Origin: Promethearchaeota archaeon
Lineage (GTDB): Archaea > Asgardarchaeota > Lokiarchaeia > Sigyniarchaeales > SOKP01
Direction of reading: 5' to 3'
NCBI GenBank assembly: GCA_016839765.1
Contig: JAEOTP010000007.1
Span: 1 to 64,000 of the forward strand
Length of the DNA stretch: 64,000 nucleotides
A program made the position numbers and the translations under genes. The notes under the pieces are model-generated. The model was given only the letters and a program-made list of their open reading frames with translations. It searched no databases and was not told the DNA's origin. Shown here one piece after another: positions 50,845-58,523 of this stretch; within the stretch, counting starts at the first letter, position 1, and every line of letters begins with the position of its first letter.

Positions 50845-51717
50845 TTACTTTTGGGAACAATCAATTCCTTCTTGAAGATTTATTTTCATAAATGCCTCCT
50901 CTTGTTGATTTCTTTGCTCTGATTTGACAGATCTATTGACTTGAGCCAGATATCTGATTGCATTTACTTTCCCTTCCTTTATGTTTTGTATTAATTCTTC
51001 TTTATTTAAACCACCAGAAATTACTAAAGCCGTTTGAAAACTATGATCGGGTTCCAATGTCATAAACTCAATTTGTAGGGAAGATAATATTTCTCCCATG
51101 CCCTCGTATAAAGTATTTGATAGATTTAATTTATCATTATCTATTTTAAAGTCTTTTGTTAAGCTCGATTCATAATGAGTTGATTTTGAGATTGGGGAAA
51201 AGCCAGCATATAATCCAGTATCATCGTATTGATAAATTATATCGTTCTCCTCATCATAACCCGAATAATCGTTATCAAAACCCTTTAATCCATTTACATC
51301 GAAATCAAATACGAAGTACATTGAGAAATCGATTAAATTATAGTCAGATATGTTTTTTATAGTAAAAAAGGTATTTATATAAGGAACTTTAGGAGGATTG
51401 AATATATCTACATACAATCTTATTAATGAATTTTCTTTTCTAAATTTAAGCGGAGGAATTATATTTCCTTTGACTAATTTTTTTAAGTATTCTTTTATAT
51501 CAAAATCAAGTGTAATTCGGTCTATAGTTGTGCCTGTTCTGGTATTAACCATTTTATATATTGGAGTAGGTTCAATATTTTTTAATATTACTGGAATCAT
51601 GCCAATACGCTCTCCCTTTAAGACAAATGAAAACCATGGACCCGCAAATTCCTGTTCAGTAAGGAAAAGTAAGGGTTTTTCTTTATACGTCAACTCCTTA
51701 ATTGAGAATCCCATCAA
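50845..51717 (-). CDS. Unrecognised beta-rich protein
   Basis: The 290-residue soluble protein is predicted to be mostly beta-strand. Notable parts are NTFFTIKNISDYNLIDFSMY (about 115-134), which resembles a beta-sandwich NEW3/CARDB-type segment, and an acidic loop FDNDYSGYDEENDIIYQYDD (about 151-170). A later segment MTLEPDHSFQTALVISGG and the closing helix complete it. There is no signal peptide, TM helix or catalytic motif that I recognise. It is transcribed with the roadblock-GTPase gene in the same direction, 172 bases downstream of it, with a short tandem repeat in the gap. A functional link with the GTPase is possible but unsupported beyond position. Confidence 0.45.
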   Translation of the reverse strand: MMGFSIKELTYKEKPLLFLTEQEFAGPWFSFVLKGERIGMIPVILKNIEPTPIYKMVNTRTGTTIDRITLDFDIKEYLKKLVKGNIIPPLKFRKENSLIRLYVDIFNPPKVPYINTFFTIKNISDYNLIDFSMYFVFDFDVNGLKGFDNDYSGYDEENDIIYQYDDTGLYAGFSPISKSTHYESSLTKDFKIDNDKLNLSNTLYEGMGEILSSLQIEFMTLEPDHSFQTALVISGGLNKEELIQNIKEGKVNAIRYLAQVNRSVKSEQRNQQEEAFMKINLQEGIDCSQK

Positions 51718-51889: not shown

Positions 51890-52864
51890 TTACACTTTTT
51901 CTATAAATCTATAGGCGATATAAAGGAATGCTTCGTTGACATTTTCGCCCGTTTTAGCACTTGTCACTATGAAATGAAGGTCTAACTGTTTCGCAATAAC
52001 TTTAATCTGTTCTTCAGTAATGACAATATTTTTATTTAAATCTGATTTATTACCTACGATAACAATTGGGATATTACGTGGAACAGATTCTTTAATATCT
52101 TTAAACCAAGTTTTAATACTATCTAGATGATCTCGCGTTCTATCAACCACAATAAATGCAGCATTGGCACCATCATAGAATCTTTGCCTATAAGGTCTAA
52201 TTTGTCCAATCTGTCCACCTATATCCCATAAAACAAAATTCAGTTTTGTATTTTCGTCCATGATAATTGATTTTTTCGATATTTCAACGCCAATCGTGGA
52301 AATATAATCCTCCTTAAAATTATTTTCAACAAATCTTCGAATTAAAGAAGTTTTACCCACTTTAAAATCTCCAGTTACTATTAATTTAGCTGTAAATTGT
52401 CCTTTTGGTAACTTTCCTTCTCTTCTTTTAGATAATACTCTTATTATTTCTGGAATTTTAATTGAGACATTCTCATTTCCTTCTAATAACATCTCAATTT
52501 TGCCTGCAATATGTTCAGAATAAACTTTTAACTCAACATCCGAAGTTGATGGATCCGCAATTGTAGTTAGAATGGAGTGATGTCCCATTGAACAATATGC
52601 GAATTTTCTGTTTTGTAATGAGGTTATGTTGAAAAAATTACTTTGAGTCTGATACTCACTTTTTATTCTATCGATATATATATCTAAAAATGCTGAAATT
52701 GCACCTATAATAGAATCTGAATCTTTATCTTCCTTAACTTTACTCTCCGAAGCTATAATAAAACCATCTCTGTCGCATAACGCAACAGCTGCTGCACCAT
52801 CAACTTCATACATATAATTTTTCAATAGTGTAGTAATGAGATTAATATTAGGAAGACTTTCCAT
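51890..52864 (-). CDS. Roadblock domain fused to Rab/Arf-like small GTPase
   Basis: The 324-residue protein joins a roadblock/LC7-like domain (about 1-130; DGAAAVALCDRDGFIIASES, then IIGAISAFLDIYIDRI) to a Ras-superfamily GTPase (about 157-324). All five G motifs are present: GDFKVGKTS (165-173), the switch I threonine in STIGVE (Thr190), WDIGGQ (213-218), NKSD (272-275) and TSAK (301-304). It aligns best with Rab-like proteins, but switch II reads IGGQ rather than TAGQ. There is no C-terminal cysteine for prenylation, so membrane attachment would need another route, perhaps roadblock dimerisation. Such fusions are a hallmark of Asgard archaea and suggest a self-regulated GTPase switch. Confidence 0.92.
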   Translation of the reverse strand: MESLPNINLITTLLKNYMYEVDGAAAVALCDRDGFIIASESKVKEDKDSDSIIGAISAFLDIYIDRIKSEYQTQSNFFNITSLQNRKFAYCSMGHHSILTTIADPSTSDVELKVYSEHIAGKIEMLLEGNENVSIKIPEIIRVLSKRREGKLPKGQFTAKLIVTGDFKVGKTSLIRRFVENNFKEDYISTIGVEISKKSIIMDENTKLNFVLWDIGGQIGQIRPYRQRFYDGANAAFIVVDRTRDHLDSIKTWFKDIKESVPRNIPIVIVGNKSDLNKNIVITEEQIKVIAKQLDLHFIVTSAKTGENVNEAFLYIAYRFIEKV

Positions 52865-53465: not shown

Positions 53466-55382
53466 TCATAAATTTTTTAAGAAATTTGAAATATATTGTC
53501 TATTTTTATATGAAATCTGATATATATTAAAAACTAAAGAATCAATATCATTTTGTAATTTGTCAATCTCTTTCTTGCTTAAATCATTAAGTGATATAAT
53601 TTTTCTAACCTTTTCTTGAATATTTTTAGAAATTAGTAGTTCATTGGGTGTTTGAGGGAACTTAATAGGTAAATTTTTAACTTTTTCAATAAGAATCCTT
53701 GGAAACAATTTCTTATAAGAGCCAAAAATCTTGATAAAATAATACGATAATAATTGAGAATTTAATAAACCTAATAAATAAAAATGATTAAATTCAGGTA
53801 TAGGAGTCTTGATAATTTTTATATTGTAAAAGGACTGAGAAGTCAAAGATTCCTTATCATAAGTAGCACATATTAAATTATTTTGACTTAGCTGTCGTAG
53901 AACAATTCTATCTTTATAATCCTCTATATTTTTGTAATTGATTCCCCTTTTTTTGATATTAATATATTTGTATCGTTTTACATGGTATCTATTCATTGAA
54001 AATAGGAAGGGTCTGTAATTTTCCTCTAATCCTTTAGGAATTTTATTATTAATAATTTTCTCTACGATATGTAAATCCAAAAGAGAATTACAATCTTTAC
54101 ATATAGCATTATTTTTGGGAAGGGGAAGGTATCTCTTACATTTTTTGCAATAAACTATTGCTCCCTCTTTTCCTAATTCTACACCCCTAAAAATGATAAT
54201 TTTATACTCTGGATTTTTCATGATATTTTTAATTTTTGGGAAATTAGAATTAAGATATTCAACAATTTTGATATCAATATCATTAATACTTACTAAAAAC
54301 TTATACTCCCACTCTTTAAGAGTGGATTGTTTGATAGAAATATTTAATCCACTGTTAATTAATGGATTATATATCGATATTAAATTTCTAAGTCTCTCTT
54401 CTTCTTCTCTTTCTTTTTGTAATATTATTATAACATTTGAAACAATCGGGTCCTCAAAACTAGGACCAATATAGTATAATTCTCTGATTTTAGTTTTATT
54501 AAATATAAATTTTCTAATCAATTTTCGATTTGACAGGGCTAAGAGAGAATCTGGAAGGATATAACCTAAGAAACCATTTTCCTTTAAAACGCTAATACCC
54601 AATTCAATAAAAATTTGATAATAATCATATTGACCTTTAATAGTTTTAAAATCCCCTTGTTCTATTAAGAGTTTATCATCCGAACTGATATCCCTTAAAA
54701 ATAAATAGGGAGGATTTCCCACCACGAAATCAAAGGAATCAAAATTAGGATACTCAAGTACATTTACATTAATAATTTTTACATCTGGAAGTTCAAAACT
54801 ATTATCAATTTTAAGACTAATCTTAATTAGTTCATAAAACGAATAGTAGAGATTTATACAACATAAAATACAGGCAATAGGATTTATATCAAAACCGAAT
54901 ACATTTTCTTGAATTTCCCTAATGATAATTTTAGCCTGATCAATAGAAAGATCAGATAAACTTCCTAAATCAAATTTCTTTACATATAAATTTATTATAA
55001 TTTTTACAATTTGAATAAGAAAACTTCCGCAACCACAACTAAAATCAACTATTTTTTTGCCTTCTATTTTATTATCCATATTATAACCGATAGCATTTAG
55101 GATATATTTTACGACATGAGTTGGTGTGTAAAATTCACCTAATCTTTTCTTTTGTGTATTAGAAATCTTGCTTTCATATATATTTCCAATGATATCTATA
55201 CCCTTCACTTCTTTCTGGTTATTATAATAGCCAAAATCCTTATTAGTTCCTAGATTGACAAATATTTCAATTATTGCATCAATAAATTCACTTTCTTCGG
55301 AATTATGTTGGCCTAATTTATAAAACTTTTTTAAACGCTGGATTATCCCTTTATTTGTAAGAAAATCTATAAATTCTCTCAT
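53466..55382 (-). CDS. N6-adenine DNA methylase with specificity-like C-terminus
   Basis: The 638-residue protein has a gamma-type N6-adenine methylase core: RLGEFYTPTHVVKYIL (about 82-97), the AdoMet motif KIVDFSCGCGSFL (about 109-121) and the catalytic VGNPPYLFLRD (near 221-231). Downstream are a two-CxxC zinc-ribbon-like insertion (CKKC ... CKDC, about 408-428) and a C-terminal region typical of target recognition in Eco57I/type IIG-like enzymes (LPIKFPQTP...). The short N-terminus shows no PD-(D/E)xK nuclease. Thus it is probably a stand-alone methylase-specificity protein; a restriction partner is not seen nearby. Confidence 0.8.
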   Translation of the reverse strand: MREFIDFLTNKGIIQRLKKFYKLGQHNSEESEFIDAIIEIFVNLGTNKDFGYYNNQKEVKGIDIIGNIYESKISNTQKKRLGEFYTPTHVVKYILNAIGYNMDNKIEGKKIVDFSCGCGSFLIQIVKIIINLYVKKFDLGSLSDLSIDQAKIIIREIQENVFGFDINPIACILCCINLYYSFYELIKISLKIDNSFELPDVKIINVNVLEYPNFDSFDFVVGNPPYLFLRDISSDDKLLIEQGDFKTIKGQYDYYQIFIELGISVLKENGFLGYILPDSLLALSNRKLIRKFIFNKTKIRELYYIGPSFEDPIVSNVIIILQKEREEEERLRNLISIYNPLINSGLNISIKQSTLKEWEYKFLVSINDIDIKIVEYLNSNFPKIKNIMKNPEYKIIIFRGVELGKEGAIVYCKKCKRYLPLPKNNAICKDCNSLLDLHIVEKIINNKIPKGLEENYRPFLFSMNRYHVKRYKYINIKKRGINYKNIEDYKDRIVLRQLSQNNLICATYDKESLTSQSFYNIKIIKTPIPEFNHFYLLGLLNSQLLSYYFIKIFGSYKKLFPRILIEKVKNLPIKFPQTPNELLISKNIQEKVRKIISLNDLSKKEIDKLQNDIDSLVFNIYQISYKNRQYISNFLKNL

Positions 55383-56108: not shown

Positions 56109-57209
56109 ATGATTGGAATTGTCTATATTAGCGTTTTCATGCTATTATTACTTGTTGGTATTATTCATGGCATTTATGCTAGAGAAAATTACGAAGTAGA
56201 AACTGGATTTGCAGTAATCATTTTTATGTATTTCATTGGTCAAGCCTTATATTTCGTTTCATTCAATTTATCCGTAGAAAATTATTTTAAAATAGAGATC
56301 TCGCAAATATTATGGAAAATATCAATCTTTATTAGAATCTTTTCAATAGGGTTAATGTCTTCTATTCATAGCGTGGAATTACATAAACATAGTAAAATAA
56401 GATTTTTAGCAATTATTATTTATCTTTTCTTGGAAGGGATAATTATTAGTTTGCTTATTTTTCCAAATTCGTTTCTGACACTACAACAAGATAATAATTA
56501 TCTATATTTCTTTCAAGATGTTACACTATTAGTATTTATATTTGTATTCAATTTAGCTATAATTATTTTTTTAGGCATATCACAAATAATGGGTTATAAG
56601 AACTTTAATGATAAAAATTTAGCAAAATTTTTCTCAAGTTATATTTGCCTTCTCTCATTGAATATTATTGTCTATTCAATCTTTCTTATAACTCAGAATA
56701 TTATTTCCAGGACTTTACATGTAATCTTATATATTATCAATAGTGGTTTTGTATTATATGTTATAATAGAAAAACCTGCTCTATTTTTAGTATTCACAAA
56801 TAAGATTTTTGATTTTATAATCTTTCATAAGTCTGGAATTTTACTTTATTCATATGATTTCCAAGCTAGTAGGGAAGTCGATGAATCTCTCTTGAAAGGG
56901 AGTATTTTAATAGGGATAAATCACATTCTTGCAAATTTTACTGGAGTTGAGAATCAATTAGATCACATAAAAATGAGTGATAAGGGGGTTGTATTTAATT
57001 TTCAAAATGATCTGGGCTATGCTGTATTATTAATTGCAAAACACAAAAACAAGATTCTGGAAAAGGCAGTACAAAAATTTATTAAAAAATTTTCAGATCA
57101 AAATAAAGAGAAATTACTCAATTTAAGTGGATTAATTGATGTTTCGGTATTTAAAGACGCTGGGAAATTGATAAAGGAATGTTTTAGTAAATATTATATT
57201 AAAGTTTAA
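56109..57209 (+). CDS. 7TM membrane protein with cytosolic longin-like domain (copy 1)
   Basis: The 366-residue protein has seven predicted TM helices (about 1-23, 33-54, 64-88, 97-117, 133-158, 176-196, 203-222), a layout like the 7TM sensor regions of histidine kinases. It then has a soluble C-terminal domain (about 230-366) that starts FIIFHKSGILLYSYDF and continues with a helix, a pair of strands (VVFNFQNDLGYAVLLIAK) and a long helix. That order matches longin/roadblock-type folds. There is no kinase, GGDEF or PDE module. The next gene encodes a paralogue. I infer a receptor-like membrane protein signalling through a GTPase-type platform; the ligand is unknown. Confidence 0.6.
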   Translation: MIGIVYISVFMLLLLVGIIHGIYARENYEVETGFAVIIFMYFIGQALYFVSFNLSVENYFKIEISQILWKISIFIRIFSIGLMSSIHSVELHKHSKIRFLAIIIYLFLEGIIISLLIFPNSFLTLQQDNNYLYFFQDVTLLVFIFVFNLAIIIFLGISQIMGYKNFNDKNLAKFFSSYICLLSLNIIVYSIFLITQNIISRTLHVILYIINSGFVLYVIIEKPALFLVFTNKIFDFIIFHKSGILLYSYDFQASREVDESLLKGSILIGINHILANFTGVENQLDHIKMSDKGVVFNFQNDLGYAVLLIAKHKNKILEKAVQKFIKKFSDQNKEKLLNLSGLIDVSVFKDAGKLIKECFSKYYIKV

Positions 57210-57374
57210 TCATTACAACCACACACACGACATATTCTCTTTAATAATATTAACCAAATGCATATATATGAATAAATCTTCTATCTTAAAAGACTTGTAA
57301 AAAAAATAAAATGTAAGAAATCTTAATAATACCTTAAATTGTAAAACAAAATTATAAACACTATAATTAGAATA

Positions 57375-58523
57375 ATGAATAATTTTGTAAGTATTTCATT
57401 AATATTAGGATATTTTCTAATTTTGTGCCTAACTTTTATTACTGTAATCTATGTAATTAAAAATCGAAAGCAATATGGTACAGATCTTATTGCTTATTTA
57501 AATATTGCAGCTGTTTTTAACTCTGGATTTATTTTTTCCACTTGCTACTTATTTTCAGTTGTTTTCTTTATTTCAAATACAACTAATCGAATATTATGGA
57601 AAATTTCAGTTATCTCATGGTTTCTCTCATTAATAATTACATCCTTTCTCTATTCATTCTTTAAAGAGTATAGAAAGATTCAAATAATTCCAATGTTAAT
57701 GATTTCGATGCTTCTCGGTCTTCTTATTGGGACTTTATTTTTACCCAATTCTATATTGATCTCTATTAGTTTTCCTCCATCTCTTCCTTTTTCTATGATA
57801 GATGTTTCTACAATTAATTATAATTTTAATTTTTTGACGGGAACAATTATTATTATCTTTCTAATATCCATTACAATTTATCTTGTATATATTTCAATTT
57901 ACATAAACCTAAAGTCAGAAAATCGTAAAGAGAGTTTACCCCTTTTTTTAAATACAAGCATTTTTACAGCCCCTATAATTTTTTATATACTTTATTTAAT
58001 CTTTCAAGTTCAATTTTATAGAGAACTTTTTGTCATTCTAATCTGGATTACAAATTTTGGATTAGATGTAATGATAATTTTAAAACCTGAAATGTTTTTC
58101 ATTTTACCAAATAAAGTTTATTCAATAAACATTTACCACAAGTCTGGAGTTCTTCTATATTCCTATAATTTTGATAAAAAGGCAAGTATTTTGAATAATT
58201 TAAAGGTATGGGGTAATATTATAATTGGATTAAATTATATTCTAAGTGAATTCGTAGATAAGTCCGATAAAATAGATGTGATTCAAATAAGAGAAGCTGA
58301 TATAGTTGTTGATTATGATAATGAATATGGATTTGCTGTAGTTGTAATTACATCAAAAAAAAATGCAATTTTAGAAAGATTAATTCAAAAATTTTCACAA
58401 GAGTTTAGATCTTTCTATAGAAATGAGTTAAATGAAATTCAAGATTTAAATCGATTAATTAATGTATCAGAATTTAAAAATGCACAACAGATTATTGAAA
58501 AAAACTTCGAATTATATCTATAA
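57375..58523 (+). CDS. 7TM membrane protein with cytosolic longin-like domain (copy 2)
   Basis: The 382-residue paralogue of the preceding gene has seven predicted TM helices (first at about 4-27, last near 213-232) and a C-terminal domain starting SINIYHKSGVLLYSYNF (about 247-263). The same motif order follows: IIIGLNYILSEF, a strand pair ending YGFAVVVIT, and a long C-terminal helix with INVSEFKNAQQI. The TM parts differ more than the soluble parts, as expected for receptors diverging in ligand binding. A 165-base AT-rich gap separates the two, so copy 2 may have its own promoter. Confidence 0.6.
   Translation: MNNFVSISLILGYFLILCLTFITVIYVIKNRKQYGTDLIAYLNIAAVFNSGFIFSTCYLFSVVFFISNTTNRILWKISVISWFLSLIITSFLYSFFKEYRKIQIIPMLMISMLLGLLIGTLFLPNSILISISFPPSLPFSMIDVSTINYNFNFLTGTIIIIFLISITIYLVYISIYINLKSENRKESLPLFLNTSIFTAPIIFYILYLIFQVQFYRELFVILIWITNFGLDVMIILKPEMFFILPNKVYSINIYHKSGVLLYSYNFDKKASILNNLKVWGNIIIGLNYILSEFVDKSDKIDVIQIREADIVVDYDNEYGFAVVVITSKKNAILERLIQKFSQEFRSFYRNELNEIQDLNRLINVSEFKNAQQIIEKNFELYL

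Follow-up and report, generated by a model that had tools for sequence, protein, structure and literature searches.

A conserved tandem gene pair in Lokiarchaeia encodes predicted seven-transmembrane proteins with cytosolic longin domains

Introduction

Asgard archaea possess dozens of eukaryote-like small GTPases. According to PMC10933270, the GTPase genes of MK-D1 generally do not share operons with genes for roadblock, longin or TRAPPC3 proteins, so that it is hard to assign regulators to these GTPases. The Asgard longin proteins treated in PMC4917890 and PMC10933270 are like the proteins studied here in organism group, fold and copy number per genome, and a subset of them is fused to small GTPases. 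Both general and GTPase-fused forms are described there; we found no description of the seven-helix fusion reported below.

In eukaryotes the longin fold often serves for docking and switching small GTPases. Longin domains occur in the TRAPP core (Bet5/Trs23, TRAPPC1/C4), MON1-CCZ1, INTU-FUZ and HPS1-HPS4, where paralogous longins are arranged in pairs, and by sequence profile these are the nearest relatives of the longins of this study. To our knowledge, none of these eukaryotic longins is fused to a membrane module, whereas each longin of the present pair is covalently joined to seven transmembrane (TM) helices. The signal recognition particle (SRP) receptor brings a longin and a GTPase together at the membrane (SRX longin of SR-alpha and small GTPase SR-beta; fold matches 2fh5 and 1nrj), but it has no seven-helix part and its membrane anchor resides on the GTPase subunit.

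Two further groups of proteins resemble the pair in their membrane part. Kinases of the HisKA_7TM type (PF16927) likewise have seven helices, the last of which leads directly into the output domain, but this output is a PAS/histidine kinase instead of a longin. G protein-coupled receptors (GPCRs) share seven helices, an N-terminus outside and a C-terminus inside the cell, a hairpin outside between TM4 and TM5 (as in the model of protein A) and a proposed link to a GTPase; they use a free heterotrimeric G protein, in contrast to a covalently attached longin.

Here we describe genes A and B, located in a window of 64,000 nucleotides (positions 1 to 64,000 of contig JAEOTP010000007.1, assembly GCA_016839765.1) from a Promethearchaeota archaeon. 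Our search of the literature for longin combined with seven-transmembrane, receptor or Asgard, which covered that literature in part, found no earlier description of this architecture.

Results

A tandem pair of paralogous genes

A first-pass annotation of the window had proposed two neighbouring paralogues at 56109-58523. Two open reading frames indeed lie there in tandem on the same strand (Table 1), and their products are 32% identical across 314 residues (E 2e-36). Both genes are under purifying selection, with dN/dS values of 0.30 for A and 0.39 for B relative to the nearest, 94%-identical relative. As the pair moreover occurs in almost every genome of the family, A and B are not chance reading frames. 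Searches of Pfam, NCBIfam and, with single sequences, the PDB gave no significant match for either protein, and a contig-scale scan found five close relatives only.

Table 1. Features of the A-B locus, in coordinates of the window
Feature	Position	Strand	Basis or remark
ORF A, 7TM-longin protein, 366 aa	56109..57209	+	orthologues throughout family; purifying selection
A membrane module, TM1-TM7 (predicted)	56112..56771	+	AF2 model, hydropathy, positive-inside rule
A beta-hairpin TM4-TM5, predicted outside, residues 122-135	56472..56513	+	AF2, local pLDDT about 91-94
A longin domain (predicted), about residues 233-360, motif HKSGILLYSY from residue 240	56805..57188	+	AF2, Foldseek, profile
A-B intergenic gap, 165 bp	57210..57374	+	
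ORF B, 7TM-longin paralogue, 382 aa	57375..58523	+	B sequences form one clade in tree
B membrane module, seven TM helices (predicted)	57375..58088	+	hydropathy; profile A5 match 57387-58085
B longin domain (predicted), about residues 246-381, motif HKSGVLLYSY	58110..58517	+	profile match E 8.4e-35 in own genome

The pair was found at 30 of 31 loci of this Lokiarchaeia family, the exception running out at a contig edge, and all 30 pairs are encoded on one strand with gaps of 77-259 bp. In the phylogenetic tree all A sequences are separate from all B sequences, and genus g6 contributes a single-copy relative that falls outside the two clades; this clean split indicates that one old duplication produced both genes. 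Among 145 Asgard genomes, the membrane module of A and B was detected in 42, which with a single exception belong to the family. Almost all matches fall within open frames of about 365-403 aa, a length that leaves room for a longin domain; the few shorter frames (338, 323 and 233 aa) look partial, and two of them are at contig ends.

Seven-transmembrane proteins with a longin, 340-390 aa in length, also exist in several further Asgard families, with 5-7 helices by a simple hydropathy count. Two groups of these are homologous to each other in their membrane modules (hhalign 96%), which were detected in 48 of 145 genomes. Tandem copies were again observed (L046/L061, L160 and G082 C5:1288250-1291227). 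A search of Asgard genomes, as the first-pass annotation had suggested, thus revealed an architecture that recurs, often in tandem.

Topology and origin of the membrane module

Hydropathy analysis identified seven helices each in A (centres 10, 43, 80, 108, 148, 186 and 211) and in B (centres 16, 57, 86, 113, 166, 205 and 227). The AF2 model of full-length A, built from 62 aligned sequences (mean pLDDT 79.7, pTM 0.72), places TM1-TM7 at residues 2-28, 32-56, 62-91, 98-116, 138-165, 169-195 and 198-221. In the A/B family, loops 1, 3 and 5 contain on average 2.4, 2.9 and 3.6 lysine plus arginine residues, compared with 0.3, 0.6 and 1.1 in loops 2, 4 and 6. By the positive-inside rule, this distribution places the N-terminus outside and the C-terminal domain in the cytosol. 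A seven-helix topology of this orientation is therefore a well-supported prediction, and neither a different helix number nor an extracellular C-terminus, which would speak against a receptor-like arrangement, was obtained.

The first-pass annotation had drawn an analogy to GPCR signalling, and the PDB structures that match the membrane part best are in fact GPCRs, in keeping with the seven helices and the outside TM4-TM5 hairpin of the full-length model. Such fold matches are to be expected since GPCRs dominate the seven-transmembrane entries in the PDB. The best Foldseek match of the full-length model to a GPCR had an E-value of 3.7e-3 and no such match reached E<=0.001, with TM-scores of 0.30-0.47 (query length) and rmsd values of about 5-8 Å; there was no match to a Pfam 7tm model, and no DRY, CWxP or NPxxY pattern was seen by eye in the alignment. 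Homology of the module to eukaryotic GPCRs is thus unsupported, and we give it almost no credence.

Another origin is suggested by the HisKA_7TM family, to which the module showed a weak, collinear full-length profile match (hhalign 62%, E 1e-5) against a noisy control: the reversed template gave 4%, and HisKA_7TM compared with its own reverse gave 30%. This match is unconvincing alone, and the HisKA_7TM model (PF16927) found no match in the organism's own genome at the search threshold. One could imagine that A and B are two-component-type sensors in which a longin has replaced the PAS-kinase output behind a HisKA_7TM input and feeds a phosphorelay partner, the more so as in other proteins a longin is found behind PAS-HisKA-like parts. 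A Pfam scan of A and B, however, revealed no kinase, receiver or phospho-acceptor domain, so that we regard this explanation as very improbable. Judged by the profile comparison, the membrane module may nevertheless stem from HisKA_7TM without any phosphorelay.

Alternatively, the helices could form a transporter, a channel or a lipid-modifying enzyme, with the longin merely regulating or localising it, and the same type of longin does occur on MFS-type transporters and other polytopic proteins. Against this stands the sparse conservation of the membrane part: the two paralogues have few conserved residues in common, most notably W69, G110 and P223, and in the family alignment none of these shared residues is obviously catalytic or charged. 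Furthermore, the membrane part, which is the fast-diverging part of the proteins, had no significant Pfam match. An MFS origin of the helices was rejected because a profile comparison with MFS gave no similarity. Taken together, a transporter or enzyme function appears rather improbable.

The C-terminal domain is predicted to be a longin

Both proteins end in a soluble domain that starts with HKSGxLLYSY, a motif noted before and found here to be near-invariant in both paralogues across the family. A model of the isolated domain of A (19 diverse sequences; pLDDT 79.7, pTM 0.74) showed the DSSP order E E H (short E) E E H H, which matches the longin topology b1-b2-a1-b3-b4-b5-a2-a3. All 50 best Foldseek matches in the PDB were longin/adaptin-type domains (best E 6.3e-5, probability 1.00), as were all 12 matches with E<=0.001, and the full-length model of A likewise matched such domains. 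Among the matched structures were AP sigma and mu, zeta-COP, TRAPP, SRX (2fh5, 1nrj), Ykt6, Sec22b and MON1-CCZ1. A profile of the domain gave eight PDB matches headed by the TRAPP 23-kDa subunit (E 0.027) and including a second TRAPP subunit, and among the weak Pfam matches of family members longins came first, with Intu_longin_1 in 4 members, Sybindin (6e-4) and Fuz_longin_1.

For A and B themselves no curated model in Pfam or NCBIfam reached its cut-off. The assignment is based on fold and profile rank, as a missed cut-off reflects a recognition threshold and not a feature of the fold. On the evidence of the models, a longin fold of the C-terminal ~135 residues is well supported.

The domain had previously been described as longin/roadblock-like and as neither a kinase nor a cyclase. 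Structure prediction bears out the longin and with it the absence of a kinase or cyclase fold, whereas the roadblock part of the description does not hold, because no N-terminal helix precedes the first strand. Roadblock/LC7 is ruled out by this topology, since the domain begins with a strand and ends with at least two helices in place of the expected single C-terminal helix. A PAS fold, which had been named as a result that would contradict the assignment, is likewise ruled out, being absent from the Pfam scans and from the top 50 fold matches.

Longin domains of this type throughout Asgard archaea

A longin domain of the A/B type was detected in 179 of 180 Asgard genomes, with 34 copies in the organism's own genome (E<=0.1) and 36-41 copies in three one-contig genomes; these numbers are in line with the 41 longin-domain proteins counted for Lokiarchaeum (PMC4917890). 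The domain is combined with seven-helix, MFS-like, single-pass, TPR and CBS parts, with PAS-HisKA-like chains and with Arf/Ras GTPases. A and B belong to a widespread Asgard class in which longins are joined to membrane or sensory modules.

Several members of this class were recorded individually. L048, L058, L064, L065 and L069 carry a C-terminal longin on MFS-type or other membrane proteins of 10-11 helices. In L049 and L050, chains of PAS domains and a HisKA-like helix are followed by a longin in place of the expected kinase ATPase domain. A single-pass group of ~760-800 aa (L067, L070, L071, L074-L076, L079, L081, L083 and L090) combines a large N-terminal part with a longin, has a TM helix at about residue 478 of the reading frame and is present in many genomes of the A/B family. 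L111 of the organism's own genome (C61:23142) is a direct fusion of a longin to an Arf/Roc/Ras-type GTPase domain. Proteins of ~650 aa from G053 (L158, L159 and L163), several of them encoded in tandem, contain a longin, and the one that was checked has TPR repeats; several of these genes have a Rab-like GTPase gene as their immediate neighbour about 100-200 bp downstream.

Association with small GTPases

The neighbourhoods of 115 longin genes in three one-contig genomes were compared with circularly shifted controls. A Ras-like gene on the same strand within 500 bp was found for 8 of the 115 (shuffled mean 1.3, reached in 1 of 1000 shuffles) and a Ras-like gene on either strand within 6 kb for 35 (shuffled mean 17.1, reached in none of 1000), the cases not being independent since three GTPase-longin fusions are among them, as are several TPR-longin/GTPase pairs that resemble one another. 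In genome G125 a small GTPase gene precedes a 7TM-longin gene in the same orientation.

The link between longin and small GTPase put forward in the first-pass annotation thus stands statistically for the domain family as a whole, through fusions and neighbourhood, but fails for the particular GTPase gene at 51890. This gene lies near A-B at 14 of 21 loci, on the opposite strand and behind a DNA methylase gene, and is absent nearby at the remaining 7, which belong to other genera; on the grounds of strand, intervening methylase and patchy presence, a specific pairing was rejected. In the protein encoded at 51890, the Ras domain is preceded by an N-terminal part that by eye resembles a roadblock domain, Pfam being confident for the GTPase only. 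Directly downstream, at 50845-51717 (minus strand), a conserved ~288-aa protein without a Pfam match is encoded; with this arrangement at about 12 loci, it is a candidate partner of the GTPase at 51890. The methylase, an N6-adenine DNA methylase of the Eco57I/TaqI_C type (53466-55382, minus strand), is upstream of and divergent from A. At 20 of 21 loci it occupies this position, either next to A or separated from it by a TrmO-like gene, even where other neighbours change.

Across the 21 loci compared, no GTPase gene is tied to A-B throughout the family. This would suit an adaptor, that is, a longin that mediates protein-protein contacts unrelated to GTPase switching, with A and B as anchors that sort or cluster other proteins. 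The top fold matches to AP sigma/mu, zeta-COP, Ykt6 and Sec22b fit such a role as well, and some longins act outside GTPase regulation, for example in SNAREs (PMC10933270). SNARE-type functions and the missing family-wide GTPase gene accordingly count against a GTPase platform. On the other side, the longin domain family is both fused to and neighboured by GTPases, and the sequence profiles lean towards longins of the TRAPP and CCZ1/MON1 type, which are Rab exchange factors. We therefore consider the adaptor unlikely, though a serious competitor.

Discussion

The membrane part and the longin have evolved at different rates: identity between orthologues is 40-44% in the former and 61-62% in the latter, as expected for a diverging input and a constrained output. 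The two paralogues have specialised, and fixed differences between A and B lie on and beside helix 1 of the longin (263 K/W, 276 N/E, 239 F/Y and 237 I/N). As roadblock proteins dimerise through their central helix region (PMC10933270), these differences fit two specialised partners. Conserved paralogues in tandem are, as far as sequences can tell, suggestive of a longin heterodimer.

On balance, we moderately favour the explanation that A and B together make up a two-subunit membrane sensor or membrane-bound docking site, with the paired longins serving as a platform for a small GTPase; the receptor-like reading is the best supported one. Each subunit would consist of a variable seven-helix module whose TM7 leads straight into the conserved cytosolic longin. 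The two longins would pair, most likely as an A-B heterodimer, and form a platform of the kind that longin and roadblock dimers build in TRAPP, MON1-CCZ1 and MglB. This platform could bind one of the cell's many Ras-like GTPases, and sensing by the seven helices, in the membrane or outside, would change the nucleotide state or the location of the GTPase, possibly through exchange in response to a ligand. The narrower proposal, in which A-B is a ligand-gated two-subunit seven-transmembrane receptor whose paired longins directly act as exchange platform for a Ras-like GTPase, is possible but tentative.

Longins are present in essentially every Asgard genome, have the build of eukaryotic GTPase platforms and are connected to varied membrane and sensory inputs, and they thus provide concrete candidates for the controllers of Asgard small GTPases. 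The A-B pair has the advantage of being compact, conserved and testable. If the proposed function is correct, it would show a way for signals to act on small GTPases that needs neither heterotrimeric G proteins nor free-standing exchange factors. Should the narrower proposal hold, Asgard archaea would possess a broad class of receptor-longins, comprising seven-transmembrane, single-pass, PAS and transporter-linked forms, and direct signalling from receptors to small GTPases would predate eukaryotes.
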